Of a stretch of DNA of 12,499 bases, positions 1 to 12,499 are shown in pieces; position 1 is the first letter of the stretch; every line of letters starts with the position of its first letter. The stretch lies in contig JAUWSZ010000021.1 in NCBI GenBank assembly GCA_030609865.1, positions 1-12,499 of the forward strand, in the 5' to 3' direction. Source of the stretch: a bacterium. GTDB taxonomy: Bacteria; Desulfobacterota; DSWW01. The notes under the pieces are model-generated. The model was not told the origin of the DNA. It saw only the letters and a program-made list of their open reading frames with translations, and searched no databases. Both the position numbers and the translations under genes were made by a program.

Positions 1-306
1 ACGGCCAGCTATTCGGCGATCCTGAAAGAGGCCTCGCTGCTGACACTGATCCGGTTCGTGACTTCGGACCCGGATCCGAGTCTGCAGATCCTCAAGGAGG
101 CCGGCTACAACGTGACGGCAAGTGAGGTTATTCTCTCGATATTGGAGAATCGCCCCGGGCGCCTTGCCGCCATCACGGACTGCCTCGCAAAGGAAGGGGT
201 CAACATCGATTATACCTATGGCTCTTCTCTGGAAGAGATGGGCAAGGCGCTCTTCGTGTTCCATGTCTCCGACACGAAGGCAGCCCTGAAGGCCCTGAAA
301 GAATAA
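1..306 (+). CDS. ACT-domain protein, 5' truncated by the window edge
   Basis: The frame is open from base 1 and ends at TAA 304-306, giving 101 visible residues; the start lies upstream of the window. The C-terminal part reads as an ACT fold: a first strand around 'SEVILSILENRPGRLAAI', then a helix and 'GVNIDYTYGSS', the usual beta-alpha-beta layout of small-molecule-binding regulatory domains. The visible N-terminal part (ILKEA..LTLIRFVTSDPD..LQILKEAGY) looks like the end of a preceding ACT repeat, so this is probably a short tandem-ACT protein of the kind that binds amino acids. A GTG at 58 could be proposed as a start, but the open, homologous-looking frame upstream argues against it. The ligand and partner are not visible. 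Confidence is high for the ACT fold and low for the role. Confidence 0.8.
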   Translation, partial: TASYSAILKEASLLTLIRFVTSDPDPSLQILKEAGYNVTASEVILSILENRPGRLAAITDCLAKEGVNIDYTYGSSLEEMGKALFVFHVSDTKAALKALKE

Positions 307-307
307 G

Positions 308-364
308 CGGGCCCTGCGCGGTCTTTGCTCTCCCTCCAGGCGGTCGTAGCTGAGGCAGGGCCCG
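308..364 (+). terminator. 10-bp perfect inverted repeat just after the ACT gene, possible terminator
   Basis: CGGGCCCTGC at 308-317 is the exact reverse complement of 355-364, separated by 37 nt, and begins one base after the stop codon. The position suits a transcription end for the ACT gene, but no T-run follows and the loop is long, so intrinsic termination is uncertain. Confidence 0.35.
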
Positions 365-434
365 AGGCGAAAGGTCAAAGGCGAAAGACAGGGATCAGGG
401 GTCAGGGATCAGGCCCAGCCGCTCCCCGCCAAGA

Positions 435-507
435 AATCGGGGACAGCCACCGAACTCGGCAATTGACTGGTTGTCCTCGAATTCGAGTTTAGTGGCTGTC
501 CCCGAAT
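435..507. repeat. REP-like imperfect palindrome upstream of the symporter unit
   Basis: Arms 435-458 and 484-507 are reverse complements at 21 of 24 positions, around a 25-nt centre; the core is GGGGACAGCCAC / GTGGCTGTCCCC. The centre holds a second small palindrome, CTCGAATTCGAG at 477-488. Long-armed intergenic palindromes of this type resemble REP elements mobilised by RAYT (Y1) transposases, but no transposase is present here, so that link is inference. Just upstream, 393-417 has a short run of near-identical GGGATCAGG-type repeats. The 307-611 gap otherwise contains only the inverted repeat at 308-364 and the repeat unit at 541-601. Confidence 0.7.
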
Positions 508-540
508 CGCCCCACAGCCATTCGCCCCTGCCAAGGAGGG

Positions 541-601
541 GGGTGGGCTAATACCTAACAGCTAATACCTTACAAGCTAACACAGACCACGAACTGTGCA
601 G
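541..601 (+). repeat. Dispersed TAATACC-type repeat, copy 1
   Basis: Bases 541-570 match 7633-7662 at 29 of 30 positions, 7 kb away. The unit is made of CTAATACC/AGCTAAC steps. Its last part, 575-601, matches 2261-2287 at 22 of 27 positions on the other side of the symporter, in the same orientation. The unit ends directly at the ribosome-binding site (GAGGGGG) of the small gene at 612, so it lies in that gene's leader. Confidence 0.65.
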
Positions 602-611
602 AGGGGGAAGC

Positions 612-710
612 GTGCTGCCTCTCTCGACCGCTCTTTGCCTCGTCGTGCCGCCGATTGTGATTCTTACGATCGCCATCCTGTACTTCTTCCGCAAGGAAGG
701 GCCGAATTGA
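612..710 (+). CDS. Small single-span membrane protein, probable symporter accessory peptide
   Basis: A GTG at 612 preceded by a strong GAGGGGG ribosome-binding site opens a 32-codon frame ending at TGA 708-710. The peptide is almost wholly hydrophobic: a membrane span at about residues 5-26 with a double proline near the middle (VVPPIV), followed by a short charged tail FFRKEGPN. It lies directly ahead of the symporter gene, and its stop codon overlaps that gene's TTG start (TTGA), implying translational coupling. Very short membrane proteins immediately upstream of sodium:solute symporters are known in bacteria and annotated as small symporter accessory proteins; this one fits in size, place and topology. 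A role in stability or assembly of the transporter is inferred. The alternative is a leader peptide acting only in cis on symporter translation. Confidence 0.72.
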   Translation: MLPLSTALCLVVPPIVILTIAILYFFRKEGPN

Positions 711-2194
711 TCCTTTTCGTCTTTCTCCTCTATCTCCTGCTCCTGGCATGCATCGGTATCTACTACACAAAGGCCAACCGTGCCCTGGAGGATTTTGTCC
801 TCGGCGGCAGGAGGCTCGGCCCCTGGGTGACCGCCGTTTCTGCCGAGGCGTCGGACATGAGCGGATGGCTTTTGATCGGTCTTCCTGCGGCGGCCTTTGC
901 CGGCGGGTTTTCCATCCTTTGGGCGGTTGTCGGATGCGCGGCCGGGACCCTGTTCAACTGGGTGGTGATCGCGCCGCGGCTCCACAGGGCCGCTGGACGA
1001 GCCGGCGCCCTGACCATCCCGGATTTCCTCGTCGCACGCTTTTCCGGGCGGGGAGGCCTCCTCATCCGGATCGTGGCGGTTGCCATCATCCTGGTCTTCT
1101 ACGCAACCTATATTTCCGCCCAGTTCACGGCGGCCGGAAAGATCTTTGAGACGACCTTCTCCGGGGTCTCGACCCCCTGGGGAGAGATATCGATCGATTA
1201 CGTCCAGGGAATCCTGATCGGTTGCGGGGTGATACTGTTCTACACGATTTCGGGTGGTTTTCTGGCCGTGGCCATGACCGACCTGGTCCAGGGCATGATC
1301 ATGGCATTCTCCGTGGTTGTGATCCCTGCGGTGGGAATCTGGCAATTGGGAGGCCTGGACGGGCTGTGGAATGCCATGGCACATGCGCGGGAAGGGGAGG
1401 TCCTTCTTCGGTTGGGAGGAGAACAGAGGGGGCTTGGCTTTCTGCTCGGCGTAGCGGCCGGGGGGCTTTCCTGGGGTTTGGGGTATCCGGGCCAGCCGCA
1501 CATCCTCGTGCGATTCATGGCCATCAAGGAGGCCGGAAAGCTCAAGTTCTCGGCACTGATCTCGGTTTGCTGGGTCCTGGCCGCCCTTTACGGGGCCATG
1601 TTCGTCGGTTTTGTCGGAAGGGCCTTCCATCCCGGAGGCCTGGAGGATCCGGACAGTGTTTTTCCGCTGCTCGCGACCCAGCTTCTGCCGGACTGGCTTG
1701 CCGGCATCATGATCGCAGCGGCCATCGCTGCTGTGATGTCTACCGTGGATTCCCAGATCCTGGTCGCAGTCTCCGCCGTTGTGAGCGACATTTACGGAAA
1801 ACTCCTGGGCGGTGAAGTCCGTTCCTCCCGGGGGGTCTGGCTCGGCCGTCTCACCGGGGTCCTGCTCGGGGGTGCGGCCTTCCTGTTGGCCCTGCAACGC
1901 AGGGGCGTGTTCGAGCAGGTCTTCGACGCCTGGGGAGGTCTCGCCGCCGGGCTGGGACCTGCCGTCTGCTTCTCCCTGCTGTGGCCTCGCACCACCTACC
2001 AGGGGGTTCTCGGGGGCATGCTGGTCGGCGCCGCCCTTACGCAACTCTGGCCGGCCCTGGTCGAGTTCTTCCCCCACCCGGTCGTTACGGTCTGGCCGGC
2101 CGCCCTGATTCCCAGCTTCGGCCTGTCCTGTTTGACGATTTGGGTGGTGAGTTTGGCTACGGTAAAAGTTTGTGGGGTCAGGTCTTGCATTTGA
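707..2194 (+). CDS. putP: Sodium/proline-type symporter (SSF family, PutP-like)
   Basis: Inner-membrane Na+-coupled solute carrier. I place the start at TTG 707, overlapping the preceding small gene's stop and with AAGGA at 693-697 as ribosome-binding site; this gives 495 residues starting directly in the first membrane span. An in-frame ATG at 596 would add a hydrophilic, unrelated N-terminus and is rejected. PutP hallmarks are the SAEASDMSGW motif, whose Asp (D50) corresponds to the Na+-site Asp of E. coli PutP, followed by LIGLPAAAFAGG; GGFLAVAMTDLVQG; GLGYPGQPHILVRFMA; and AAAIAAVMSTVDSQ...VVSDIYGKLL. About a dozen membrane spans are apparent. Proline is the best guess for substrate from these motifs; another amino acid or carboxylate cannot be excluded. 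The C-terminus is odd: the last codons and the stop lie inside a perfect palindrome, and the hydrophilic tail after the last span is shorter than in E. coli PutP. Confidence 0.88.
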   Translation: MILFVFLLYLLLLACIGIYYTKANRALEDFVLGGRRLGPWVTAVSAEASDMSGWLLIGLPAAAFAGGFSILWAVVGCAAGTLFNWVVIAPRLHRAAGRAGALTIPDFLVARFSGRGGLLIRIVAVAIILVFYATYISAQFTAAGKIFETTFSGVSTPWGEISIDYVQGILIGCGVILFYTISGGFLAVAMTDLVQGMIMAFSVVVIPAVGIWQLGGLDGLWNAMAHAREGEVLLRLGGEQRGLGFLLGVAAGGLSWGLGYPGQPHILVRFMAIKEAGKLKFSALISVCWVLAALYGAMFVGFVGRAFHPGGLEDPDSVFPLLATQLLPDWLAGIMIAAAIAAVMSTVDSQILVAVSAVVSDIYGKLLGGEVRSSRGVWLGRLTGVLLGGAAFLLALQRRGVFEQVFDAWGGLAAGLGPAVCFSLLWPRTTYQGVLGGMLVGAALTQLWPALVEFFPHPVVTVWPAALIPSFGLSCLTIWVVSLATVKVCGVRSCI

Positions 2195-2237
2195 ACTTTA
2201 CTCCGAGGCTAAAGTTCAAATGCAAGACCTGACCCCA
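2173..2237. repeat. Perfect 28-bp inverted repeat overlapping the symporter 3' end
   Basis: Arms 2173-2200 and 2210-2237 are exact reverse complements with a 9-nt loop (CTCCGAGGC). The left arm begins TGGGGTCAGGTCTTGC. It encodes the last six residues and the stop of the symporter, and sits between that gene and the convergent nrdG. The form is that of a REP-like mobile palindrome; as RNA it would be a very stable hairpin and could end transcription from both sides, although no T-run follows. It is unrelated in sequence to the palindrome at 435-507. Confidence 0.85.
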
Positions 2238-2250
2238 ATAAGAGGTGGTT

Positions 2251-2287
2251 GGGAGCTAACAGCTAACCTAATCCACGCACTGTGCAG
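2251..2287 (+). repeat. Dispersed TAATACC-type repeat, copy 2 (degenerate)
   Basis: GGGAGCTAACAGCTAACCTAAT followed by CCACGCACTGTGCAG. Bases 2261-2287 match 575-601 at 22 of 27 positions in direct orientation, so related units stand on both sides of the symporter pair. It lies in the 67-bp gap before the nrdG stop, where I see no other signal. Confidence 0.5.
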
Positions 2288-2304
2288 GAGCCAAAGAAGC
2301 GAGA

Positions 2305-3027
2305 CTAGGCCACAGCCTGTTCCTTCAGGTATTCGGGGGGATAGGCCGGAAGGTCACAGAAGAGGGGATCGAGGCATTTCCCGGGACGAAACTGCTGCAG
2401 GAAGTATCGGTGGCTGCCCTGGAGCCATTCACCCAGATGGGCGAGATCGCCTTCATCGAGCAGACCCGGTACGACGGTGGTCCGGAGCTCATACGGCACG
2501 GCCGAGGCCTGGAGCAGTTCCACCGTTGCTTCCGTGGCGGCCACCAGTTCGGTCTCCGGCATGGCCGTGCGGGCGATGGCGCGGATCTTGTCCGGAGGCC
2601 CCTTGATGTCCACGGCCACGTAGTCCAGAAGGGAAGCATCCAGCAGGGGCCCGAGCCGTTCCGGCAGGGAGCCGTTGCTGTCCAGCTTGATCTGGAGGCC
2701 CAGTCCACGAATTTGTCGGCACAGCTCGGGGAGTCCCTTTTGAAGCAAAGGCTCTCCGCCCGTCAGGCAGACGCCCTCCAGCATCCTGCTGTAGGTTGCC
2801 AGGTAGGTGATGATCTCGTCCAGGTCGAGGGGTGCCTGTCCGTCCCCCTCCTCGTCGAGGACGAGTTCCGGGTTGTGACAGTAGGGGCAACGAAAGTTGC
2901 AGCCTTGGAGAAACAGGGTGGAGGCCACCCGCCCCGGATAGTCGAGCAACGTGGTCTTGGACCAGCCAAGAATGCGAACAACCGGCTCCTCGGGGGGAAG
3001 CTCCAAGTCGGTCGGAATCAATGACAT
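2305..3027 (-). CDS. nrdG: Anaerobic ribonucleotide reductase activating enzyme (radical SAM, NrdG2 type)
   Basis: Cytoplasmic 4Fe-4S/S-adenosylmethionine enzyme that installs the glycyl radical on NrdD. The start is ATG 3027-3025, overlapping the TGA of the glutaredoxin-like gene by one base (TGATG), giving 240 residues; an earlier in-frame ATG at 3078 would overlap that gene by about 50 bp and is less likely. The radical-SAM cluster motif CNFRCPYC (C43, C47, C50) follows an N-terminal stretch (LGWSKTTLLDYPGRVASTLFLQG) typical of the NrdG2/TIGR02495 group. TGGEPL (89-94) is the SAM-binding GGE motif; LQIKLDSNGS and DYVAVDIKGP are later barrel strands. It is longer than E. coli NrdG (about 154 residues), as expected for this group. 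It is the last gene of the nrdD operon and coupled by overlap, with no intrinsic terminator beyond the palindrome at 2173-2237. Confidence 0.92.
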   Translation of the reverse strand: MSLIPTDLELPPEEPVVRILGWSKTTLLDYPGRVASTLFLQGCNFRCPYCHNPELVLDEEGDGQAPLDLDEIITYLATYSRMLEGVCLTGGEPLLQKGLPELCRQIRGLGLQIKLDSNGSLPERLGPLLDASLLDYVAVDIKGPPDKIRAIARTAMPETELVAATEATVELLQASAVPYELRTTVVPGLLDEGDLAHLGEWLQGSHRYFLQQFRPGKCLDPLFCDLPAYPPEYLKEQAVA

Positions 3028-3467
3028 CAGGGTCGGTCTTGGAGGATTTCGCGGATTTCTCGCGGACCCATGGCCCACTTCAGAATCTGGCCGTCTCCAG
3101 CCACATTGAGCAAGACGGGAAGGTTCATCTCTCCGCTGTCCTTGCGTGTGATCTTGTTCCGGATTTGCCGGTAGTACTGGGTGAAGAGCTTTCGACCCGT
3201 GGTATCCTGGAGGTCCAGGATTTCGACGTGAAGGTCAAGGGTGCCGAGGTCCTCCTTCACCTCGTCGCATTTCGAGCAATTCGGCCTGGTGAAGAGCTTC
3301 CAGTCGCTCGACCCGTTCACGCGATGGGTTCGAGGCTCCATGAAGCTGTTGAGTTCCAGGATCGGCATCATTCGTACGTCCGGCCTCTCCGCGGAAACGT
3401 CGTCCGTGCCGGTGGGCTCCCTCTTCTCCTCCGCGATGGCCTTGTCCACGCCGTGGAGGGTGACCAC
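3027..3467 (-). CDS. Glutaredoxin/thioredoxin-fold protein within the nrdD operon
   Basis: A predicted 146-residue cytoplasmic redoxin. From residue 55, DWKLFTRPNCSKCDEV contains a glutaredoxin-type CxxC (C64, C67) after the first beta strand; LHVEILDLQDT is the second strand, and NLPVLL carries the expected cis-proline before the last strands. The N-terminal ~50 residues match nothing I recognise. I keep GTG 3467 because AGGGA sits just before it and the gap to the nrdD stop is only 6 bp; an internal ATG near residue 33 or 43 would give a more usual redoxin length. Its place between nrdD and nrdG indicates that it supplies electrons to the reductase, as NrdH-type redoxins do for thiol-dependent class III enzymes. 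That role is inferred from context plus motif. Confidence 0.82.
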   Translation of the reverse strand: MVTLHGVDKAIAEEKREPTGTDDVSAERPDVRMMPILELNSFMEPRTHRVNGSSDWKLFTRPNCSKCDEVKEDLGTLDLHVEILDLQDTTGRKLFTQYYRQIRNKITRKDSGEMNLPVLLNVAGDGQILKWAMGPREIREILQDRP

Positions 3468-3473
3468 GTTTCC

Positions 3474-5597
3474 CTAGGGCTTCGTCGAAAAGAGCCTGCG
3501 GTCCAGGTATTCCTCCGCCTTGCCCTTGTTCCAGTTCTTGACGGGCCGATAGTAGCCCACGATCCGGGCGTACACCTCTGTTTCATTACCGCAAGACGGG
3601 CACTTTTCCTGCTCGCCTTTGAGGTACCCGTGGTCTGAGCACACGGAAAAGGTGGGGGAAATCGTGTAATAGGGGATTCGGTAGTTCTCTGCGATCTTCC
3701 TTACCAGCTTTTTGCAGGCCTCCGTGTCCTCGATGCTCTCCCCCAGGAAGCTGTGGAAGACCGTGCCGCCCGTGTATTTTCGCTGAATCTCCTCCTGGAG
3801 GTCCAGGGCACCGAATAGGTCCGACGTGTAGCCCACGGGGAGTTGGGTGGAATTCGTGTAGTAGGGCGCCTCCTCGCCGGCGGTCACGATCTCCGGGTAG
3901 CGCTCCTTGTCGATCTTCGCGAGCCGGTACGAGGTGGACTCGGCAGGGGTGGCCTCGAGGTTGTACAGGTTGCCGGTTGACTCCTGGTATTCTATGAGGC
4001 GTTCCCGCATGAAGTCGAGCACCTCGAGGGCGAACAACCGCCCTTCCTCGGCCACCAGGTCCTTGCCGAGGAAATTCGTGCAGCATTCGTTCATTCCCAC
4101 GAGACCGATGGTGGAGAAGTGGTTGTCCCATGTGCCGAGATATCTTTTCGAATACGGGAACAGCCCTTCGCCCATCAGCTTCGTGATGATTGCACGTTTG
4201 ATTTCGAGGGAGTCCCGGGCACTACCCATCGTTCGGCCGAGTCGCTCGAAGAACTCTTCCCGGCTCCTGGAGAGGTAGCCCAGCCTCGGAAGATTGATCG
4301 TGACGACCCCGATCGACCCTGTGAGCTCGGCCGCACCGAAAAGGCCCCCTCCCTTCTTCTTCAACTCCCGCTTGTCCAACTGAAGCCGGCAGCACATGGA
4401 GCGCACGTCGCTGGGTTGTAGGTCGCTGTTGATGAAGTTCTGAAAATAGGGGGTGCCGTACTTGGCGGTCATCTGGAAAAGAAGCTCCGCGTTTTCGCTG
4501 TCCCAGTCGAATTCCTCGGTGATGTTGTAGGTAGGTATTGGATACGGAAAGCCCCGGTCCGCCGCGTCCCCTCCCATCATTACTTCCAGGAAGGCGCGGT
4601 TGATCATGTCCATCTCTTTCTGATAATCGCCGTAGCAGCTGTCCTGGGCCTTCCCTCCGATGATGACCGGCTCGTCCCTCAGGTCCTGGGGCACGACCCA
4701 GTCCAGCGTGATGTTCGTGAAGGGCGCTTGCGAGCCCCAGCGACTCGGGGTGTTCACGCCGAAGATGAAGCTCTGGATGTTCTGCTTCACCTCCCGGTAG
4801 CCGATGCCGTCATGCCGTATGAAGGGGGCGAGGTAGGTGTCAAAGCTCGAGAATGCCTGTGCCCCGGCCCACTCGTTCTGGAGGACTCCCAGGAAATTGA
4901 CCATCTGCGCTATCAGGGTGCTCAGGTGATGGGGAGCGTGAGAGCTGATCTTGTTCGGCACACCGCCGAGACCCTCCTGGAGGAGCTGTTTCAAGCTCCA
5001 GCCGGCGCAGTACCCGGAGAACATGCACAGGTCGTGGATGTGCATCGTTCCGTTTCGGTGGGCGTTCGCGATGTCTTTGGTGTAGATGTTGTTGAGCCAG
5101 TAGTTGGCGGTTACCGTTCCGGAATTGTGAAGGATGAGTCCTCCCAGGGAGTAGTTCACGTTGCTATTTTCCCGGACACGCCAGTCCGCCTGGCTGAGGT
5201 ACCCATCCATCGTGTTCTTGATGTCCAGGAGCAGGCTCTTGGTTTCCCGTATGCGGGCATGCTGTTCCCGGTACAGGATGTAGGTCTTGACCGTCCTGGC
5301 ATGCCGCCTGTGAATCAGGACCTCTTCGACAAAATCCTGGATTTGCTCGACCGCGGGGATCGAGCGGGGATGGGTTTGCTTCACGAGCGTCTCACACACC
5401 TCGTTCGAGCATCGAACGGCCTCGTCCCTGTCCTCCAGGTCCACTGCCTTCATGGCATTGACGATGGCCTGTGTGATTCGCTCCTGGTCAAAGGGAACGA
5501 TCTTTCCGTCCCGTTTCCGGATGCAGTAGTTTTCGTCGGTCAGATGGAGAAAAGCCGGTTTCTCCCTCGTGTCCGACTCGACGTATGCCTGCGCCAT
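3474..5597 (-). CDS. nrdD: Anaerobic (class III) ribonucleoside-triphosphate reductase
   Basis: Glycyl-radical enzyme reducing ribonucleoside triphosphates to dNTPs without oxygen. It is 707 residues from ATG 5597, with AAGGAG nine bases upstream. The N-terminal ATP-cone (about 23-118: CIRKRDGKIVPFDQERI...ILYREQHARIRE) is the allosteric dATP/ATP site. The barrel carries HDLCMFSGYCAGW and RSMCCRLQLD (C402/C403), where the substrate-side thiyl cysteine lies. The C-terminus has a zinc-site region (CSDHGYLKG...CPSCG, C653/C666/C669) and the radical loop RIVGYYRPV with Gly681. E. coli NrdD has Met672 nine residues before its radical Gly and uses formate; the equivalent residue here is Glu672, pointing to the thiol-dependent subgroup and agreeing with the glutaredoxin-like gene that follows. 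First gene of a three-gene operon; the promoter region carries NrdR-like boxes. Confidence 0.95.
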   Translation of the reverse strand: MAQAYVESDTREKPAFLHLTDENYCIRKRDGKIVPFDQERITQAIVNAMKAVDLEDRDEAVRCSNEVCETLVKQTHPRSIPAVEQIQDFVEEVLIHRRHARTVKTYILYREQHARIRETKSLLLDIKNTMDGYLSQADWRVRENSNVNYSLGGLILHNSGTVTANYWLNNIYTKDIANAHRNGTMHIHDLCMFSGYCAGWSLKQLLQEGLGGVPNKISSHAPHHLSTLIAQMVNFLGVLQNEWAGAQAFSSFDTYLAPFIRHDGIGYREVKQNIQSFIFGVNTPSRWGSQAPFTNITLDWVVPQDLRDEPVIIGGKAQDSCYGDYQKEMDMINRAFLEVMMGGDAADRGFPYPIPTYNITEEFDWDSENAELLFQMTAKYGTPYFQNFINSDLQPSDVRSMCCRLQLDKRELKKKGGGLFGAAELTGSIGVVTINLPRLGYLSRSREEFFERLGRTMGSARDSLEIKRAIITKLMGEGLFPYSKRYLGTWDNHFSTIGLVGMNECCTNFLGKDLVAEEGRLFALEVLDFMRERLIEYQESTGNLYNLEATPAESTSYRLAKIDKERYPEIVTAGEEAPYYTNSTQLPVGYTSDLFGALDLQEEIQRKYTGGTVFHSFLGESIEDTEACKKLVRKIAENYRIPYYTISPTFSVCSDHGYLKGEQEKCPSCGNETEVYARIVGYYRPVKNWNKGKAEEYLDRRLFSTKP

Positions 5598-5657
5598 CTT
5601 GTCTCCTTGTGCATACGGATTAACGTTTTAGAAGTTGTTTGTATTTTAGGCAATTGG

Positions 5658-5694
5658 TATAGGTTATTTAAAGTAAATTCTTAAATAACCTATA
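5658..5694. promoter_or_regulatory. Perfect 14-bp inverted repeat in the nrdD leader
   Basis: TATAGGTTATTTAA at 5658-5671 is the exact reverse complement of 5681-5694, with a 9-nt spacer. It is AT-rich, lies about 60 bp upstream of the nrdD start and downstream of the predicted transcription start, and its outer end overlaps NrdR-like box 1 by 8 bases. It could be a dimeric operator (for example for an anaerobic or redox regulator) or an mRNA hairpin in the 5' leader; no specific regulator can be named. Confidence 0.6.
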
Positions 5695-5702
5695 TCTAGT
5701 GT
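5687..5702 (-). promoter_or_regulatory. NrdR-like box 1
   Basis: On the minus strand this reads ACACTAGATATAGGTT, which matches the palindromic NrdR consensus ACACTATATATAGTGT at 13 of 16 positions. It lies about +10 to +25 from the predicted nrdD transcription start. NrdR is the ATP-cone repressor of bacterial ribonucleotide reductase operons and binds paired boxes about 31-32 bp apart centre to centre; box 2 is exactly 31 bp away. Confidence 0.65.
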
Positions 5703-5717
5703 CTTCAGGATAGATGA

Positions 5718-5733
5718 CTACTATATCTTGTTG
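5718..5733 (-). promoter_or_regulatory. NrdR-like box 2, overlapping the nrdD -10
   Basis: On the minus strand this reads CAACAAGATATAGTAG and shares the ATATAG core with box 1; 10 of 16 positions match the NrdR consensus. Weak alone, it gains support from its 31-bp (three helical turns) spacing to box 1 and from covering the predicted -10 element, where a repressor would block polymerase. Confidence 0.5.
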
Positions 5734-5747
5734 CTTATTCCTGTCAA
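5720..5747 (-). promoter_or_regulatory. Sigma70-type promoter of the nrdD operon
   Basis: On the minus strand TTGACA (5742-5747, perfect -35) is followed after 16 bp by TATAGT (5720-5725, 5 of 6 of the -10 consensus). Transcription would start near 5713, giving a leader of about 115 nt. The rest of the 5598-5954 gap holds the inverted repeat, the NrdR-like boxes and a possible terminator of the gene upstream; I see no other gene there. Confidence 0.65.
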
Positions 5748-5858
5748 GGGAAAAATGCTCTGACCCTGGAACAGCGTCTTTCTTTGACACGGTGCTTCAT
5801 AAGAAAAAACAGTTAAATTGGTGACTTAGATGCTTCAAAAAGGGGCAAGAATTTTTCT

Positions 5859-5892
5859 AAAAAGCCCTCAAATGGGTTGCAGACCCGGCCTT
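5859..5892 (-). terminator. Possible intrinsic terminator after the LarA-family gene
   Basis: On the minus strand AAGGCC opens an imperfect stem closed by GGGCTT, with an inner GGGT/ACCC stem, and is followed by a T-run (about 5858-5864 on the plus strand). It lies about 60 bp past the LarA-family stop. The stem is imperfect, so confidence is moderate. A short GCCCC/GGGGC hairpin closer to the stop could add to it. Confidence 0.4.
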
Positions 5893-5954
5893 GATTCGAC
5901 GAGTCGGGCGCGGCTCCCGCCGGAGATGCCCCTGCCGGGGCGGTTTCGGCCCGT

Positions 5955-7484
5955 TTAGAGCACCTCGGTCACGAATATGGGGGGGACAGCAAGGTGTGTC
6001 AGGGAGAACCCTTTCCCCAATCCCTCTGGCGCGATCGACAGGGCCCGCTCCAGGGTCGGGACGGGTGTGAAGCCCAGACGCTCGACGACCCCGGGGTCTC
6101 GAGCGCCCACCACCAGGATCTTCGACAGCCGCTTCAGGGCAAGGCAACCCCAGGCCCAGGCGTAGAAGGGATGGACCCCATGGTAGGCATACCGATGCCG
6201 ATATCGGTCGATGTACTCGGGCCTTGTTGCCAAATCGATCTCAAAGCCTTCTTCGATCTCCCTGGGATCCCGGGTCTGTGGAAGGACACGATCGTAGAAT
6301 TCCGCGTAAGAGGGATGGTGTTGTGGATGGAACCCGGGCAGAAACGGGTTCATCAGGATCATGACCCCGCCATCCCGTACCACGGGGCGTTGCTGATGCA
6401 GGTTGTACACATAGCCGAGGGCCATGTTCATTACCAGGATAGGATTGATCCGGGAGAAGACCGAATACGGAGAGAGGTTGGGAAGCCCCAGGAACAGGGC
6501 ATCGGTCTGCCCCTTGACCGTAACATTCTGCTGGCGGGCCAGCGCGGTCAGCGTGGCAGGGTGTACGTCGTCGATCCGGCCGGCATTTACGGCAATCGGC
6601 TCGTAGGCGCTTCTCAGGAATCCGGACAAGTGCTGCTTGACAGGCTCCGGCAGCCTCCTGGCCCATCTCATCGGCGAGGCAACGCGGCCGTTCGGGTCCT
6701 TCCCGTTCACAGAAAGCAACTTATCGATGCCCGGGCCCCAAACCCGGCTATTCACAACCGTCTCGATCGTGAAAATGTTGGCGTTTTCGGAGACGACGGC
6801 CCCCATCTCTCCCATCATCCCGTGGTAGTCACTCCGGTCGGGATCCATAAGGGTTCCCTTCTCGAGCACGCCCACGTTGTGGTGGGCACGGATGCTCTCA
6901 AAGGTCCCAAGACCCACGACGATCGACTTCCAGCCGCCGTTCATCGGGGTCCAGTTGACGTTCACGTAGATGAGCAGATCCGATTCCGTTACCCATCGGT
7001 TCACCTGGACAGGATGCCCGTTTCGGCTCCTGCCCAGATCCACGATCCCGTCCGGATCCTCTGCGTCGTGGTTGGAGATCCGGTTGGGCCCCATCTCTTG
7101 CCAGATTTTCCTGCCCAGCAGGTGGCGCAGCTCGGCCGGGGTCCACTTCCGGTGAAGGCCGATGGCGCAGACCAGCCGGATGCGGCCCTTGTCGATTCCG
7201 GCTCGGAACAGCTCCTCCAGGACCACCTCGATGGCGCTGGCCCGGACGTCCCTGGCCATCGGTGGCTGAGGGAGGCAGGGGTCGTCAAAGGCGATGGTGA
7301 TGCGGTTGCCGGGCCGGACGAGGGCGGCTAGGGGTGGAGAGCCGATCGGCCCTTGGAGGGCTCTTCGGACGGCCCCGTTGTAGTCCCGCAGGCCTTGGAT
7401 CGGCTCCGGGGGAAGAATGGAGCGGGTTTCATCGGGCAGGGTAACATTGACCAGATCGTCTCCGGCGAGTACTTTGCACTGCAT
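5955..7484 (-). CDS. LarA-family (nickel-pincer, lactate-racemase-like) protein, divergent
   Basis: A 509-residue cytoplasmic protein. I start it at ATG 7484, with AGGAGA about nine bases upstream; a GTG at 7502 lies before that ribosome-binding site. The N-terminal domain has the LarA layout: RITIAFDDPCLPQPP (cf. the SDxTRP region), CAIGLHR with His111 (cf. His108 of L. plantarum LarA), NHDAEDPDGIVDLG, then VNRWVTESDLLIYVNVNW. NGGWK gives Lys186 (cf. Lys184, the cofactor anchor), and His202, 16 residues later, fits the nickel ligand His200. The stretch that normally reads PHxxAGxSGGxK is shortened here to PMNGGWK, so the second catalytic histidine (His174) appears absent. The C-terminal half is long (family members are often about 420 residues), with TYR-rich segments such as RYRHRYAYHGVHPFYAWAWG. 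Cofactor genes larB, larC and larE are not in the window. Substrate unknown; probably a 2-hydroxy acid racemase or epimerase relative. Confidence 0.8.
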   Translation of the reverse strand: MQCKVLAGDDLVNVTLPDETRSILPPEPIQGLRDYNGAVRRALQGPIGSPPLAALVRPGNRITIAFDDPCLPQPPMARDVRASAIEVVLEELFRAGIDKGRIRLVCAIGLHRKWTPAELRHLLGRKIWQEMGPNRISNHDAEDPDGIVDLGRSRNGHPVQVNRWVTESDLLIYVNVNWTPMNGGWKSIVVGLGTFESIRAHHNVGVLEKGTLMDPDRSDYHGMMGEMGAVVSENANIFTIETVVNSRVWGPGIDKLLSVNGKDPNGRVASPMRWARRLPEPVKQHLSGFLRSAYEPIAVNAGRIDDVHPATLTALARQQNVTVKGQTDALFLGLPNLSPYSVFSRINPILVMNMALGYVYNLHQQRPVVRDGGVMILMNPFLPGFHPQHHPSYAEFYDRVLPQTRDPREIEEGFEIDLATRPEYIDRYRHRYAYHGVHPFYAWAWGCLALKRLSKILVVGARDPGVVERLGFTPVPTLERALSIAPEGLGKGFSLTHLAVPPIFVTEVL

Positions 7485-7541
7485 TTCGGCTTCTCTCCTC
7501 ACTATGGGTTGTTGCTTTCTCTGAAGCCCGTGGCTGTTCTT

Positions 7542-7668
7542 GGTATTAGGTATTAGGTATAAGGTATTAGCTCCCAGCCCTTGCCGCCACCAGGACTCTC
7601 GATCGTCCTCGTCCTCGAACGGATGGGTGGTGGGGTGGGCTAATACCTAACACCTAATACCTAATACC
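7542..7668. repeat. Inverted pair of TAATACC-type repeats (127-bp hairpin)
   Basis: Arms 7542-7571 and 7639-7668 are reverse complements at 28 of 30 positions and consist of GGTATTA / TAATACC steps. The 67-bp centre is non-coding. The right arm and its flank (7633-7662) match 541-570 at 29 of 30 positions. It occupies most of the gap between the HAD gene and the LarA-family gene, both on the minus strand, and could form a strong mRNA hairpin or be a small non-autonomous mobile element. Confidence 0.75.
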
Positions 7669-7676
7669 CAATCCTT

Positions 7677-8321
7677 TCACCTTCGGTACTCTTCCAGAAA
7701 CCCGGGCAACTCCTCGAGGCGATGGATCCGCAGTGGATGGGGAATGCTGTTGCCCATCAGGATGAACGGAATATCGGCGGCCTCGGCGGCGATGCGGTCG
7801 TTTTCCATGTCCCCTCCATAAACCGCCTGCCTGGGGGCAAGACCTGTCTTCTCCAGGCAGTAGAGCAGCATGTCGGGTGCAGGCTTCGGCTGCGGGACCT
7901 CGAGGATCGTGGAGACCACGTCGAAAACCCCTTCGAGCCCGAACCGCTCGAGAAGCGGGGGGATGGATTTTCCTCGATTGGTGGCCAGGGCGACCTGGTA
8001 GGATGCCTTCAATGCTCCCAGAACCTCGTAGAGGCCAGGCTCCGGATCCATGTATTCGAGAAACGGGAGGTAGTCGATCGTGTAGGCGATGCGCTCCGCC
8101 TCTTTTGCCTTTTCCGGGTCATCCGCGTAGAGGTGCGCGAACAACTGTGGGGTAGAGTAGACGTGACAGAGCCTTCTTGCCTCTTCATCCAGGGGCGGGC
8201 CGCCCATTCTTTCAAGGATCGCGTCGTAGTAGGCGACGTTGGATCGGATGGAGTCGAAGAGAACGCCATCGCAATCCAGCATCACGAGCTTGAGGGTGTG
8301 GTTTCGCGTGTCTTGGATCAT
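7677..8321 (-). CDS. HAD-superfamily hydrolase (phosphoglycolate-phosphatase-like)
   Basis: A 214-residue soluble phosphatase with the full HAD motif set: motif I VMLDCDGVLFDS (nucleophile D16, acid/base D18), a helical cap of the subfamily-I type at about residues 25-95, motif II ALATNRGKS (T114), motif III PQPKPAPD (K146) and motif IV GGDMENDRIAA (D171, D175). The order and size match Gph/PGPase-type enzymes that remove phosphate from small sugars or acids; the substrate cannot be read from sequence. Start ATG 8321 has little ribosome-binding sequence; no better in-frame start lies before motif I. A weak promoter (TTGACC 8388-8393, 18-bp spacer, TAGGCT 8364-8369, minus strand) lies upstream. 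The next gene downstream is the LarA-family gene, separated by the repeat hairpin, so co-transcription is possible but unproven. Confidence 0.88.
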   Translation of the reverse strand: MIQDTRNHTLKLVMLDCDGVLFDSIRSNVAYYDAILERMGGPPLDEEARRLCHVYSTPQLFAHLYADDPEKAKEAERIAYTIDYLPFLEYMDPEPGLYEVLGALKASYQVALATNRGKSIPPLLERFGLEGVFDVVSTILEVPQPKPAPDMLLYCLEKTGLAPRQAVYGGDMENDRIAAEAADIPFILMGNSIPHPLRIHRLEELPGFLEEYRR

Positions 8322-8400
8322 TCGATGTCCATGCCAGGAGCGCTCGGTGAAAGTATCTATAAGAGCCTAGCACGCGGGTTTTTTTCAGGTCAATCGAGTC

Positions 8401-8591
8401 GAAAGGAAACGGTCGCTATGTTCCAATCGACTCTTGGCGTTCGGCGCTGTTCCGGGCTCCCTCTCCGATTTGCTTGGGCTCCGTCTCTCCCGCCCCCGAA
8501 GTCGCCCTGCACAAATCTCCGACGGACCCCGAAACAGCGCCGAAACCCTTGAGCTCTGAAAGGGAAACACAGCGACCGTTTTCTCTCTTTC
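8401..8591. repeat. About 190-bp imperfect palindrome between divergent genes
   Basis: The two halves are reverse complements in blocks: 8407-8417 with 8571-8581 (11 of 11), 8440-8451 with 8533-8544 (12 of 12, TTCGGCGCTGTT) and 8467-8472 with 8512-8517 (6 of 6), with similar but mismatched sequence between. The centre is about 8473-8511. It fills most of the 8322-8634 gap between the minus-strand HAD gene and the plus-strand phosphodiesterase gene. No protein gene fits. It could be a decayed mobile palindrome (MITE- or REP-like pair) or a structured RNA; block conservation with matching arms is compatible with either. Confidence 0.65.
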
Positions 8592-8634
8592 CGGTAAGAT
8601 GAAATGCTGAGGTTGGGCTGGTAAGATCTATAGG

Positions 8635-9123
8635 ATGGACCTAAAACAGAAAACCGGCAAGGGCCGCCGCATAGGCGTCGTGTCGGATACCCACGGGCTG
8701 ATTCGGCCCGAATTGCTAGAAGCCCTCTCGGGGGTGGAGATGATCATCCACGCAGGGGACGTAGGGGGGCGTCGGGTCCTCGAGGTGTTGCGAGCCCATG
8801 CGCCTGTTGTGGCAGTGAGGGGAAACATGGATGGGGGGCCGTGGGCCCGAGGGTTGTCCGAAACCGAGGTGGTGGAGATCGATGGGTCCCGCTTCTATGT
8901 CCTTCACGATGCCAACGAAATTGACCTGGACCCGGCCGCGGCCGGTTTTCGGGCCGTCATCAGCGGTCACACCCATCGGCCGTCCCTGTGCAGGCGCAAT
9001 GGCGTGCTCTTCCTGAATCCGGGCAGTGCCGGCCCGAGGAGGTTCAGGCTCCCGGTCACTGCCGCCATCCTGCATCTGCGGGGGGAATCCATGGAGGTGG
9101 AACTGCTCGAGGTGAAGGACTGA
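8635..9123 (+). CDS. Metallophosphoesterase, YfcE/MJ0936-type phosphodiesterase
   Basis: A 162-residue soluble calcineurin-like phosphodiesterase that uses two metal ions. The motif series is complete: GVVSDTHG (D18, H20), IIHAGDVG (D42), AVRGNMD (N64), YVLHDAN (H91) and ISGHTHRP (H112, H114), ending with the family signature NPGSAGPRR. Length and motif spacing match YfcE-type enzymes, which hydrolyse phosphodiesters in vitro; the natural substrate is generally unknown. ATG 8635 is preceded only by TAGGA directly abutting it, so the ribosome-binding site is poor. The gene is convergent with the histidine kinase gene, 21 bp apart, and I see no terminator between them. Confidence 0.92.
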   Translation: MDLKQKTGKGRRIGVVSDTHGLIRPELLEALSGVEMIIHAGDVGGRRVLEVLRAHAPVVAVRGNMDGGPWARGLSETEVVEIDGSRFYVLHDANEIDLDPAAAGFRAVISGHTHRPSLCRRNGVLFLNPGSAGPRRFRLPVTAAILHLRGESMEVELLEVKD

Positions 9124-9144
9124 CTTCTTTGTGAATCGGACCAC

Positions 9145-10608
9145 TCAGGAAGGCTCGTCGGGGAGATCCGGCAGGGCCTCCGTGCCGGCCGGCATTCCCT
9201 TTGCGGCGTCCTGCAAGGGTGAATCGATGGGTACCACGATACGGAACGTGCTGCCCTCACCCGGGACGCTCTCCGCCCATATCTTGCCGCCCAGGCAGGT
9301 GAGAATCTCCTTGCAGATCGAAAGGCCGAGTCCGGTCCCCTTTGGCTTGTCCGTCAAGGTGTCGCCCACCTGTTTGAAACGCTCGAAGATTTGCCCAAGC
9401 TCTTCAGGGGGAATGCCGATCCCCGTGTCGGCCACGGAAAGGCATAGGAAGCCCCCGGTGTCTTTGAGGCCCCTCTCTTCGCAGCGGGAGCCTTGAATGT
9501 GGATCCTGCCCCCACGTGGGGTGAATTTGATCGCGTTTCCGAGCAGATTCGAGAGAACCTGAAGGATTCGGTCTTCGTCCATCTCGAAGCGGGGCAGGCC
9601 CTCCTGTACGTCGATGTCCAGGTGGAGTTCCTTGTCCAGCAGCAGGCCCTGGACACTCTCGGTCGCCCGTTGAACCACGGCCCCCATCTCCAGTCTCCGG
9701 AGATTCCACTCCATCTTTCGGGCGTCGATCCTTGCCAGGTCCATGATGTCATCGATGAGCCGTGTCAGCCGTTCGCTCTCACGGTTGATGATGGTAAGGA
9801 ATTCCTGCAGCGTGTCGGATCCGTCATCGTCGTAGTTCAGCAGGATTTCCGAGAAGGACCGGATCGACGTCAGGGGCGTTCTCAACTCGTGGGACACGGA
9901 GGAGAGAAAGGAATCCTTTGTCTTGTCGAGTTCTTTGAGTTCCTTGTATGCCTCGCGCAGCTCTGCGGTCCTCTTCTGGACCCGTTCCTCGAGTTCGTCG
10001 TTAAGTTTGCGGATTTCCGCTTCCGCCTTGTTACGCGCGGAGATATCCTGGAGCAGGAAGACCTTGCCGGCGCTGGTCCTCAGTTTTACGACGATCAACT
10101 CGAGAGGGACGGTCTCACCCTCTTTCTTTCTTCCGGTGCCCAGCCCCTTGGAGAAGCCTTCCTTTTCGACCCGCTGGTAGAACCCGCTCCCATGTTCCTG
10201 TCCCGAGATTGCCTCGAGTTTCAGAAGATCCGTCTTTTGGTTGATCATCTCCTTGGCGGTGTAGCCGAACATGCGCTCCACAGAGCCGTTGCACATGAGA
10301 ATCCGGTTCTCTGCGTCCGCGACGAGGAGCACGTCCGGATGGATGCTCAGGATGATGTCTTCCAGCTCGTCCTGCTTGCGGAGGGCCCGAATCCAGCCCC
10401 GGTAGATGAGCCAGAGGAGGCCTGCCAGGTAGAGGAGAACCAGGTTCGCATACAACTGGAAATCCGCGACCTTCGAGTAGAAATTCAAAAATCCAAGGAT
10501 TCTGTCCGTGGCATTGATGGCGATGGCAAAAAGCGCAACGCTGACCGTCAGGACCACGACCAGTGCGAGATTAACAGTATCCCTGTTGCTCGCATTCATG
10601 GACTTCAT
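9145..10608 (-). CDS. Membrane PAS sensor histidine kinase
   Basis: A 487-residue two-component sensor of the inner membrane. Two N-terminal spans (about 12-32 and 52-70) enclose only some 20 residues, so there is no sizeable periplasmic domain. A PAS domain follows (about 80-190: PDVLLVADAENRILMCNGSVERMFGY...GKVFLLQDIS), then a coiled linker (191-230). The HisKA helix has SVSHELRTPL with phosphoacceptor H240. The ATPase domain shows the N box NLLGNAIKFTPRGG, G1 DTGIGIPPEE, F box FERFKQ and G2 GTGLGLSICKEI. The short C-terminal tail is proline-rich. The signal is probably cytoplasmic or intramembrane, through PAS. No response regulator is adjacent, so it is an orphan here. ATG 10608 has GGGAAGA as ribosome-binding site; a TATGAT -10-like element lies at 10650-10655 on the minus strand. 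Confidence 0.93.
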   Translation of the reverse strand: MKSMNASNRDTVNLALVVVLTVSVALFAIAINATDRILGFLNFYSKVADFQLYANLVLLYLAGLLWLIYRGWIRALRKQDELEDIILSIHPDVLLVADAENRILMCNGSVERMFGYTAKEMINQKTDLLKLEAISGQEHGSGFYQRVEKEGFSKGLGTGRKKEGETVPLELIVVKLRTSAGKVFLLQDISARNKAEAEIRKLNDELEERVQKRTAELREAYKELKELDKTKDSFLSSVSHELRTPLTSIRSFSEILLNYDDDGSDTLQEFLTIINRESERLTRLIDDIMDLARIDARKMEWNLRRLEMGAVVQRATESVQGLLLDKELHLDIDVQEGLPRFEMDEDRILQVLSNLLGNAIKFTPRGGRIHIQGSRCEERGLKDTGGFLCLSVADTGIGIPPEELGQIFERFKQVGDTLTDKPKGTGLGLSICKEILTCLGGKIWAESVPGEGSTFRIVVPIDSPLQDAAKGMPAGTEALPDLPDEPS

Positions 10609-10766
10609 TGCATCTTCCCGATACCGAGCGGTTACGAGCGAGTCTATCCATCATAACTGATAAGGAGATCGGCTGTTTGGGAGGAAAAACTTACTCGAAG
10701 GAGGAAGAGTCGGGCTTTTTTGTTTGGATGACCTCGACAGCGGGGGGGATCGCCTCGAGTCCTTCC

Positions 10767-11084
10767 TCAGCGCCCGATCATGGCAATCTTGTTGTAGAAC
10801 CAGCCGATGAAGGAGCCGGTCAGGGTTCCCAAGGCAAAACCGTACAGGAACCCGATGAAGCTTCCCGGGAAGGAGACCCGGTACCCGATGAAGTACTGGC
10901 TCAACAGGGCCAGGTGGGGCCCCACGGGCTCTCCCCCCTTCACGACGAGCCAGTTCGTTGCCAGGAACAACGCTAGGCCGCAGACGATTCCCAGGGTAAG
11001 CCCGAAGACCTTCGTATTCAGCCAGAGGACACCACTGAACAGCTTTTGTTCAGCGGCCCGATCTTCTTCATTTCGCCCGTTCAT
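10767..11084 (-). CDS. Small membrane protein, stand-alone copy of the neighbour's C-terminal domain
   Basis: A 105-residue protein from ATG 11084 with GGGAGGA eight bases upstream; a longer in-frame reading to 11255 would run deep into the upstream gene and has an unrelated N-terminus. After a short hydrophilic head (MNGRNEEDRAAEQK) there are two hydrophobic segments, about residues 25-42 and 70-95. Between them is the motif FLATNWLVVKGGEPVGPHL followed by QYFIGYRV. The upstream FAD protein ends in the same domain: across the 31 residues from FLAT to FIGYxV, 24 are identical. The genes are 31 bp apart on the same strand, so co-transcribed. I do not recognise a named family. Pairing or heterodimerisation with the FAD protein's membrane domain, or a role as its membrane partner, is inferred. 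Confidence 0.82.
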   Translation of the reverse strand: MNGRNEEDRAAEQKLFSGVLWLNTKVFGLTLGIVCGLALFLATNWLVVKGGEPVGPHLALLSQYFIGYRVSFPGSFIGFLYGFALGTLTGSFIGWFYNKIAMIGR

Positions 11085-11115
11085 GCCTCTGTCCTCCCGC
11101 GCTTCCGGCGCTTCG

Positions 11116-12499
11116 TCAGAAATGCTCGAAAAAATCTCGCAGAGACAACATCTCGGCCTTCTTCTTTGCCATGTACAGGTAAGCAGCGAGGATGAAATTT
11201 CGAAGATAGGCAAACAGCCATCCGAAAAGAAACCCCCAGACGAAAGCGTATCCAAAGGCCAGACAGGCCCCTTGCGTCGTGACCGTGTACCCGATGAAGT
11301 ACTGCTCCAGGAGTCTCAGATTGGGGCCGACGACCTCTCCACCTTTGATGACCAGCCAAAGGGTGGCCAGGAAGATGAGGAGCCCTGAGGCGGTCCCCAC
11401 CGAAATTGCGAAGGCCAGCTTGTCCATTCGGGCGAATGCAGGCGCAAGCACACCTTCCCACGACTTCGCCGCTTTCTGCTCTTCGAGATACTCTTCTTCC
11501 TCGTTGACACTCCAGAGGTCATGGCGCGAACCCAGGACATTCTCGGCGGCCAGCATCCCCGTGATCATCGAATGATCCATATTGTTGTACCGATGCATGC
11601 CATTGCGGCCGATGGTCTGGAGATTCTCGATTGTCCCGAGGAAGGTTCGAATCGTTTCCAGGTGTTCTTCAACCCCGTGGTTGTAGACGGGATACGCCTT
11701 GGGCTGACGCACCACGTAGCTGTCGATCACATCGTCCGCATGGGCCAGCCCGAGTTCTGCCAACTCCGAGGAAGCGAGCCCCCGCAGGTCCTCATCGGGC
11801 ATCTGCCAGACCTCATCCCCTTCGTCGCAGAAGTATTCCATCCCCAGACTGGTCTTGTCCGGATTCGGAACCATGGCGGCACTCCAGTTTTTGAAATTCT
11901 GGATACGCCCCACCCTCACCTCTGAACCGTGCACGTAGATCCACTGGTCCGGAAAGACCTCCCGCTTGTTCACGATGAGAACCACGATAAGAAAGGCACG
12001 GTAGGAGAGCTTGCGGGCCGCCTCGCGTACCTCCTCAGGCGCCTTCGGATCGAGCATGCCTACGAGCGTCGAGATGGGAATGCTGGAAATCAGCTCGCGA
12101 ACCGGGAATTCGTGTTCTCTGTCGCTTTCCTGGAAAACCACACGAAGAATCCGTCCCTTATCGAGGCAAAGGCGAGTCACTTCGGATCGCAACCTCAGTT
12201 GTCCTCCCGAGGATTCGATCGCCTTCCGAAAACGTTCCCACATCATTCCCGGCCCCTTCTTGGGGTAGCTAAAGGCCTCGATCAGGGACTTCGCCTTCTG
12301 GACACCGAAAAGGGCGTTGGTGACGGCCCTGGCAAGGGACAACCCCTGGATACGCTGTGCGGCCCAGCTCGCAAGGATTTCGTCGCAAGGGATCCCCCAG
12401 ACCTTTTCCGTATAGGTTTTGAAGAAGGTTCTGTAGAGGCGTTCACCAAACCGGTTGGAGACCCACTGTGCGAAGGTTTCCTCCTGGGGATGCTTCCAG
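11116..12499 (-). CDS. FAD-dependent amine-oxidase/UGM-like oxidoreductase with C-terminal membrane domain, 5' partial
   Basis: The frame is open to the window edge, giving 460 visible residues; the N-terminal Rossmann FAD motif lies outside. FFKTYTEKVWGIPCDEI (about 25-40 of the visible part) is a motif of amine-oxidase / UDP-galactopyranose-mutase-like flavoproteins found in envelope-sugar and prenyl pathways. Near the end of the catalytic part, IGRNGMHRYNNMDHS...AAENVLG is the C-terminal FAD-contacting region. About the last 105 residues (11116 to roughly 11433) form a membrane domain with FLATLWLVIKGGEVVGPNL, QYFIGYTV and a second hydrophobic helix, then a basic tail MAKKKAE. The small gene downstream repeats this domain. 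A TTG at 12342 is not the true start because homologous sequence continues upstream. The reaction is unknown; the family suggests redox or mutase chemistry at the inner membrane. Confidence 0.82.
   Translation of the reverse strand, partial: WKHPQEETFAQWVSNRFGERLYRTFFKTYTEKVWGIPCDEILASWAAQRIQGLSLARAVTNALFGVQKAKSLIEAFSYPKKGPGMMWERFRKAIESSGGQLRLRSEVTRLCLDKGRILRVVFQESDREHEFPVRELISSIPISTLVGMLDPKAPEEVREAARKLSYRAFLIVVLIVNKREVFPDQWIYVHGSEVRVGRIQNFKNWSAAMVPNPDKTSLGMEYFCDEGDEVWQMPDEDLRGLASSELAELGLAHADDVIDSYVVRQPKAYPVYNHGVEEHLETIRTFLGTIENLQTIGRNGMHRYNNMDHSMITGMLAAENVLGSRHDLWSVNEEEEYLEEQKAAKSWEGVLAPAFARMDKLAFAISVGTASGLLIFLATLWLVIKGGEVVGPNLRLLEQYFIGYTVTTQGACLAFGYAFVWGFLFGWLFAYLRNFILAAYLYMAKKKAEMLSLRDFFEHF

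Follow-up and report, generated by a model that had tools for sequence, protein, structure and literature searches.

The window analysed here is a 12,499-nucleotide stretch of a Desulfobacterota genome (GenBank assembly GCA_030609865.1, contig JAUWSZ010000021.1, positions 1 to 12,499). At its end, two adjacent genes on the minus strand encode a flavin adenine dinucleotide (FAD) protein and a small membrane protein, which share a two-helix membrane domain. The FAD protein gene (11116..12499, minus strand) is of the PRK07208 type and resembles UDP-galactopyranose mutase (UGM); its open reading frame (ORF) was read at 11116-12498 and is cut by the window edge, the 5' end lying beyond it. The product (P0001) comprises a catalytic UGM-like flavin domain (residues 1-338; 11485..12498, minus strand), in which contact residues of the Aspergillus fumigatus UGM (AfUGM) are present, and a C-terminal two-helix membrane domain with its tail (residues 357-460; 11119..11430, minus strand), referred to below as copy A. 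The helix limits of copy A were taken from the secondary structure of a homologue's model. On the same strand, 31 nt separate the FAD stop codon from the ATG of a free-standing 105-residue membrane protein (P0002; 10767..11084), referred to as copy B, and a ribosome-binding-like GGAGG (11093..11097, minus strand) lies 8 nt upstream of that ATG. In a database search at E 0.001, B had 742 homologues, of which the best 120 were listed. A longer ORF of 162 aa (10767-11255) is the frame of B extended upstream.

The paired membrane domains

A sequence-only reading of this stretch had proposed that the C-terminus of the FAD protein and the whole of the 105-residue protein represent one domain, and the comparison bears this out. 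A and B are identical at 44/98 positions (BLASTP, E 1e-20), and a gapless core, FLATLWLVIKGG...GYTV, holds 24/31 identities by hand count (the best computed 31-residue frame gives 23). The trace of kinship that the same reading had seen in the DNA is also real: the 18-base repeat GTACCCGATGAAGTACTG occurs exactly at 10881-10898 and 11287-11304, encodes QYFIGY in both A and B, and has a mean chance expectation of 0.00 in 200 shuffles. Judged by this alignment, A and B are paralogous two-helix membrane domains.

The age of the duplication was read from a tree of 59 domain copies, in which the A and B labels were assigned by gene order. One branch (support 99/96) splits 29 A from 29 B copies. Because the copies sit on the two sides of that branch, the duplication is ancient, a single old event followed by parallel descent. 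A recent local duplication was considered and rejected on the same split. No ORF carrying two domain copies was found among the ORFs of the loci inspected, and none of the best 120 of 281 relatives of the FAD protein with its copy A is longer than 614 aa.

The loop KGG[DE]xxGPxLxLLxQYFxGY is conserved in both copies, as had been expected from the single pair, and is represented in the window by KGGEVVGPNLRLLEQYFIGYTVTTQ in A (11272..11346, minus strand) and KGGEPVGPHLALLSQYFIGYRVSFP in B (10866..10940, minus strand). In the B alignment, loop residues G50, G51, G55, L58, L60, L61 and Y68 never vary, and position 49 holds a K in 31/33 rows. Column counts of the A alignment (35 rows) show the loop kept nearly as well, with small residues at corresponding places; A is further marked by R572-N573, which is invariant, and by a charged tail that is conserved. 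The second helix of B (10797..10865, minus strand) carries a glycine zipper, G74-G78-G82-G86-G90 (G94), whose first five glycines are invariant in 33/33 rows and whose last is kept in 27/33. By these column counts the zipper of B, and not the loop alone, is the most rigid feature of the pair. In the models, A and B are each predicted to have a pair of long helices separated by a short one. If the FAD domain is cytoplasmic, the loop would face the periplasm, and the basic residues that follow the second helix of A fit this orientation, with the loop outside and the FAD domain inside.

The loop had been proposed as a functional site. Its conservation stands, but the zipper of B is more rigid, and single relatives that have no enzyme carry a shortened loop; the loop is therefore no proof of a flavoenzyme site.

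Homology of the flavin enzyme to UDP-galactopyranose mutase

The window protein matches NF005548 (PRK07208.1-4, annotated "hypothetical protein") at E 5.8e-142, scoring 473.7 bits against a cut-off of 389, and its sequence matches in the PDB are UGMs. The NF005548 match stops at residue 353 of P0001 and leaves the membrane domain uncovered. Foldseek comparison of an AlphaFold model of the homologue at locus L007 (599 aa, 35 rows, mean pLDDT 83) with the PDB returned UGMs in the first 34 rows (A. fumigatus, E 1.6e-31), followed by protoporphyrinogen oxidases; the match to 4dsh has a TMt of 0.85 at 23% identity.

Contact residues were mapped through a profile alignment to AfUGM together with Table 3 of a 2013 review (PMC3624792). 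Y104, F158, R182, Y317, R327, Y419, Y453, N457, W167, H63 and R447 (AfUGM numbering) are invariant in 35/35 rows. They include the five diphosphate-binding residues R182, Y317, R327, Y419 and Y453, all of which are also found in the window protein, as are F158, W167, W315, R447 and N457. The positions of Y104 and H63 fall beyond the window end and so outside the coverage of the window protein. Among the other mapped positions, N163 corresponds to T, as it does in DrUGM (T180 in the same table); S461 is S in 31/35 rows, Q458 is kept in 8/35, and the remaining flavin contacts differ.

By sequence and predicted fold, then, the FAD protein is a UGM homologue. It has the same fold as the A. fumigatus enzyme (3ukh) and 4dsh and keeps nearly all of the mapped contacts of the diphosphate, uracil-stacking and flavin-histidine/arginine kinds. 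It differs from them in its low identity (~20-23% in fold alignments), in two contacts that are not kept (N207 and Q107), and in possessing a C-terminal membrane domain and a separate sister protein, neither of which the matched UGM chains align to. The dedicated UGM profiles score the window protein, whose N-terminus is missing, below their cut-offs (PF03275 (GLF), 20.3 vs 26.3 bits; TIGR00031, 22.5 vs 303.75). PF03275 is over its cut-off in 3/34 genomes (G008, G045 and G747), of which G747 has no A/B.

A plain redox enzyme was considered as a candidate and rejected on the UGM residues. A more specific version makes the flavoprotein an oxidase, for instance protoporphyrinogen oxidase, and the domain a plain anchor. 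It draws on the fold search, where structures of this oxidase come next after the UGMs, and on database names: of the 281 relatives of the FAD protein, the best 120 include many JGI entries labelled "protoporphyrinogen oxidase". We consider it highly improbable: the UGM active-site residues are invariant, glycan genes neighbour the enzyme, and the oxidase equivalog NF008841 reaches 18.1 of the 517 bits that it requires, with the N-terminus of the window protein missing, against 473.7 of 389 for NF005548.

Distribution and gene arrangement

A scan of a genome collection seeded with B returned 30 loci, and an FAD gene of the same kind adjoins B in 28 of them. The exceptions are L027, where A and B are small genes with no enzyme alongside, and L030, which holds a lone NF037947 protein. 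The A/B loci belong to five phyla (Desulfobacterota-type, Nitrospirota, Acidobacteriota, Chloroflexota and KSB1), so the predicted recurrence of the domain, fused and adjacent to a flavoprotein, extends across several phyla. B is a separate gene in every unit read. A is a separate gene preceding the enzyme at L023, L024 and L032 (A, enzyme and B forming three genes), occurs with B and no enzyme alongside at L027 and L033, and is fused to the enzyme at the other loci.

Five genome surveys used a profile of the domain that combined rows of A with rows of B. Among 148 genomes of the phylum of the NaphS2 genome, four fused copies were found, all four with an adjacent B; among 85 genomes of its order, six fused copies, all six with B (G002 and G045 being also in the phylum survey); and among 198 genomes of the phylum of the Nitrospira genome, 11 fused copies, all 11 with B. 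The Acidobacteriota survey (199 genomes) recovered A and B in four (G009, G215, G176 and G349), and a survey of 201 genomes from the phylum to which the Caldilineaceae genome belongs recovered one pair (G011), as well as an A with enzyme and no B in G544, where the contig stops ~120 bases past the enzyme. Overall, 24/25 distinct genomes with a recognised A carry B in the same unit, a tally that includes five genomes known beforehand from the B-seeded scan (G001, G002, G007, G009 and G011). In Nitrospirota, 11/11 enzymes scoring >800 bits are accompanied by A and B, and the 45 remaining genomes in which an enzyme matched (at <=487 bits) yielded no such pair; the enzyme profile used here includes the membrane domain and favours fused enzymes, and six candidates were scored per genome. 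In G349, A and B lie on a different contig from the enzyme, beside glycosyltransferase family 2 (GT2) and Wzx-type genes. These arrangements indicate that the paired membrane module of a UGM-like mutase can be fused, split or lost.

Glycan gene neighbourhood

Genes confirmed by Pfam beside units in several phyla encode GT2 and GT4 glycosyltransferases, Wzx-type proteins, polysaccharide deacetylases and GFO/IDH proteins, and such Pfam-confirmed glycan genes served as queries for neighbourhood counts. Glycosyltransferase or Wzx-type genes lie near 27/43 units (eight of the 27 supplied queries), one of the associations that the earlier reading had named as support for its proposal. In Nitrospirota, glycan genes were found in the stretch read around 12/12 units (11 survey genomes plus L029), compared with 1/20 stretches of 16 kb chosen arbitrarily in five of the same genomes; the 12 units are not independent, as six supplied queries and L029, L039, L042 and L044 are close relatives.

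These neighbourhoods could also be read without the enzyme. A and B might form a small membrane machine of their own, such as a channel, a flippase or a glycan-lipid assembly factor, that is merely co-transcribed with the enzyme or loosely fused to it. Such a machine would account for L027 and L033, where A and B stand without a neighbouring enzyme near a deacetylase, or near GT2 and Wzx-type genes, and for the free-standing single relatives in many genomes. We nevertheless regard it as unlikely, given that the enzyme adjoins B in 28 of the 30 first-scan loci and that pairs without an enzyme were not found in Nitrospirota.

A proposed membrane-held mutase

The sequences themselves show a UGM fold with its active-site residues, an old division between A and B, the joint retention of the two, and a frequent glycan neighbourhood. 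From these we infer an activity and substrate, a contact between A and B, their orientation, and tethering as the purpose of the pair. With moderate confidence, we favour a UGM-like flavin mutase that an A:B bundle keeps at the membrane, close to where glycans are assembled. Like UGM, the cytoplasmic FAD domain would form a flavin N5-sugar adduct and thereby contract (or re-expand) a nucleotide-sugar ring. A, mostly fused to the enzyme and sometimes encoded separately, and B would pack through their glycine-zipper helices into a heteromeric bundle. This bundle would anchor the enzyme to the inner membrane, next to the glycosyltransferases and flippases that use its product.

Several observations weigh against this reading. 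A reciprocal enzyme search yielded 14 Acidobacteriota enzymes scoring at least 650 bits: A/B adjoins three (G009, G176 and G215), is unlinked in G349, and is represented near that of G178 by a diverged A-like ORF, and the other nine (9/14) have no A/B match genome-wide or nearby. The A/B-less enzymes nest inside the clade of A/B-bearing enzymes, and a single clade of A/B-bearing enzymes was rejected by the approximately unbiased (AU) test (p 0.0003; 0.0006 with L081, the locus of G178, on the A/B side). Since 9/14 lack it, the pair is accessory, not catalytic, and dispensable for the enzyme. Conversely, L027 (G012) has A and B, and no enzyme of this kind was detected in its 1.6-Mb genome, which may be incomplete. 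Most of the UGM contact residues also occur in PRK07208-type enzymes that lack A/B, and these residues therefore mark the enzyme family and not the membrane form. Of the two galactose contacts, N457 is invariant and the N207 position is I/V in 35 rows, aligned there by profile only; Q107 (a uracil hydrogen bond) is variable. Given the changes at N207 and Q107, the sugar or the nucleotide may differ from that of UGM. Finally, no glycan gene was found in 16/43 units within the stretch read, nor in the window itself. In nine of these 16, which form one lineage, the unit is flanked by hslUV and dnaE; five are on contigs <5.5 kb, and the last two, L020 and L028, are on longer contigs.

The Nitrospirota surveys had suggested that the enzyme depends one-to-one on A/B, a reading that the Acidobacteriota survey ruled out. 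Treating L081/G178 as A/B-less was likewise dropped, as the diverged A-like ORF lies next to its enzyme on the opposite strand (E 0.0016 with the generic profile); the A profile matches this ORF at 7.4e-26, but that profile contained this ORF and at least one B (L004). The proposal of an undescribed two-component membrane flavoenzyme accordingly survives in part. The pair recurs, and no description of A/B with a UGM-like enzyme was found in the titles and abstract openings of the open-licence papers that the literature searches listed; the enzyme itself, however, is a recognisable UGM homologue that, in most of the Acidobacteriota cases, does without A/B.

The altered contacts also bear on the substrate. 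The A:B pair might bind a polyprenyl-(di)phosphate sugar and present it to the flavin, with ring contraction taking place on the lipid carrier and not on a UDP-sugar. This would suit a loop conserved in both A and B, diphosphate contacts that are kept where Q107 and N207 are not, and the GT2 and Wzx-type neighbours. We think it distinctly unlikely, because both uracil-stacking aromatics are invariant, as expected of a nucleotide substrate, and enzymes without A/B occur in the same clade.

A different role for the membrane is suggested by the chemistry of UGM. UGM makes galactofuranose donors and is active only with reduced flavin, although its reaction involves no net redox change. According to the 2013 review, some system must keep it reduced, and bacterial UGMs use NAD(P)H poorly (PMC3624792). 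A:B could place the mutase within reach of the quinone pool, or of some other donor in the membrane, so as to keep the flavin reduced, and placement at the membrane would serve such reduction. No haem or quinone motif was recognised by eye (no dedicated motif search was made), and A/B-less enzymes exist. Many of the hosts are anaerobes, where flavin reduction should be easy, which also counts against redox coupling, and we rate it as very unlikely.

A broader formulation, in which a UGM-type mutase has turned into a membrane enzyme whose A:B zipper heteromer uses its loops to handle a polyprenyl-linked sugar or to feed quinol electrons, seems to us fairly unlikely. If correct, the lipid carrier or else the respiratory chain would be coupled to furanose formation. 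A tethered mutase with a partner of its own would be a system for testing membrane coupling. It would also assign a function to a family of two-helix proteins that has no name, and genes of this kind now called "protoporphyrinogen oxidase" or "bacteriophage holin" could be labelled correctly.

Relatives of the membrane domain

The domain matched no characterised family in Pfam, NCBIfam, PHROGs or PDB sequences. A Foldseek search with the B model gave 0 matches at E 0.001 (the best, at E 2.0, was the glycosyltransferase GtrB, which we read as chance), and the best PDB sequence match of the B profile was an unrelated receptor (E 0.073). A distant named relative does exist: NF037947 (holin_4, "bacteriophage holin") has, like A and B, two helices and the pattern YxGYxVxxxGSxxGxxYGF...YN. 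Seven A/B proteins score 32-47 bits against its 70-bit cut-off (43.1 for P0002, 32-47 for the six others), and the C-terminus of the FAD protein scores 28.3. Four proteins exceed the cut-off (L030 and L048-L050; 76-84 bits); they lack the KGG[DE]xxGPxLxLLxQ loop, and no UGM-like gene was found in the stretch fetched around each. By these scores the A/B domain is a sub-threshold relative of NF037947, which qualifies the earlier reading, in which no named domain was recognised.

PHROG searches at E 0.1 gave no match for P0002, L030, L048 or the B of L007, and weak ones for the A of L024 (best E 0.027). The family name was rejected as grounds for a holin function, as the match is below the cut-off and no phage family was matched. 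For the lone NF037947 proteins themselves (L030, L048, L049 and L050), the phage name looks doubtful, L030 and L048 having no PHROG match.

The other survey matches are single small ORFs, of which 39 were read plus three from Nitrospirota; single copies occur in 24 more Nitrospirota genomes. The A and B profiles applied to them were imperfectly sorted (51 and 35 rows), and the copies were judged by eye from their sequences. Neither the RN...D tail of A nor a fused enzyme was found among the single copies read, and most of them resemble NF037947. An early view that all were plain holin_4 was dropped, as several are intermediate. Eight (L108-L110, L114-L117 and L119) have a shortened GG...L.L loop and stand between NF037947 and A/B; in the first seven the loop takes the form GG...LxxLxxFYxGY, and L119 most resembles a lone B. 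Taken together, the copies place A/B as an offshoot of a wider free-standing family, and the intermediate ones may show where A/B came from.

Other genes of the window and of related loci

A PAS/HisKA/HATPase sensor kinase (9145-10608, minus strand) follows B in the window, and its orthologues also lie downstream of B in the close relatives L001 and L002 (78% and 72% identity). Further along, a LarA-like protein (5955-7502, minus strand) falls near the NCBIfam family LarAH_14_15_16 (537 bits vs a 740 cut-off) and is related to nickel-pincer hydroxyacid isomerases. Among the related loci, the UGM-like gene at L023:751-2212 consists of two overlapping ORFs, a frameshift or an assembly error. At L086:4553-7495, a UGM-like FAD domain is part of a 981-aa ORF, in which it is joined to ~490 residues that match no Pfam family. 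A cysteine-rich protein of 172 aa (L008:5675-6193), for which Pfam gave no match in L008, is encoded just before the FAD gene or overlapping it in nine loci (cluster c2).
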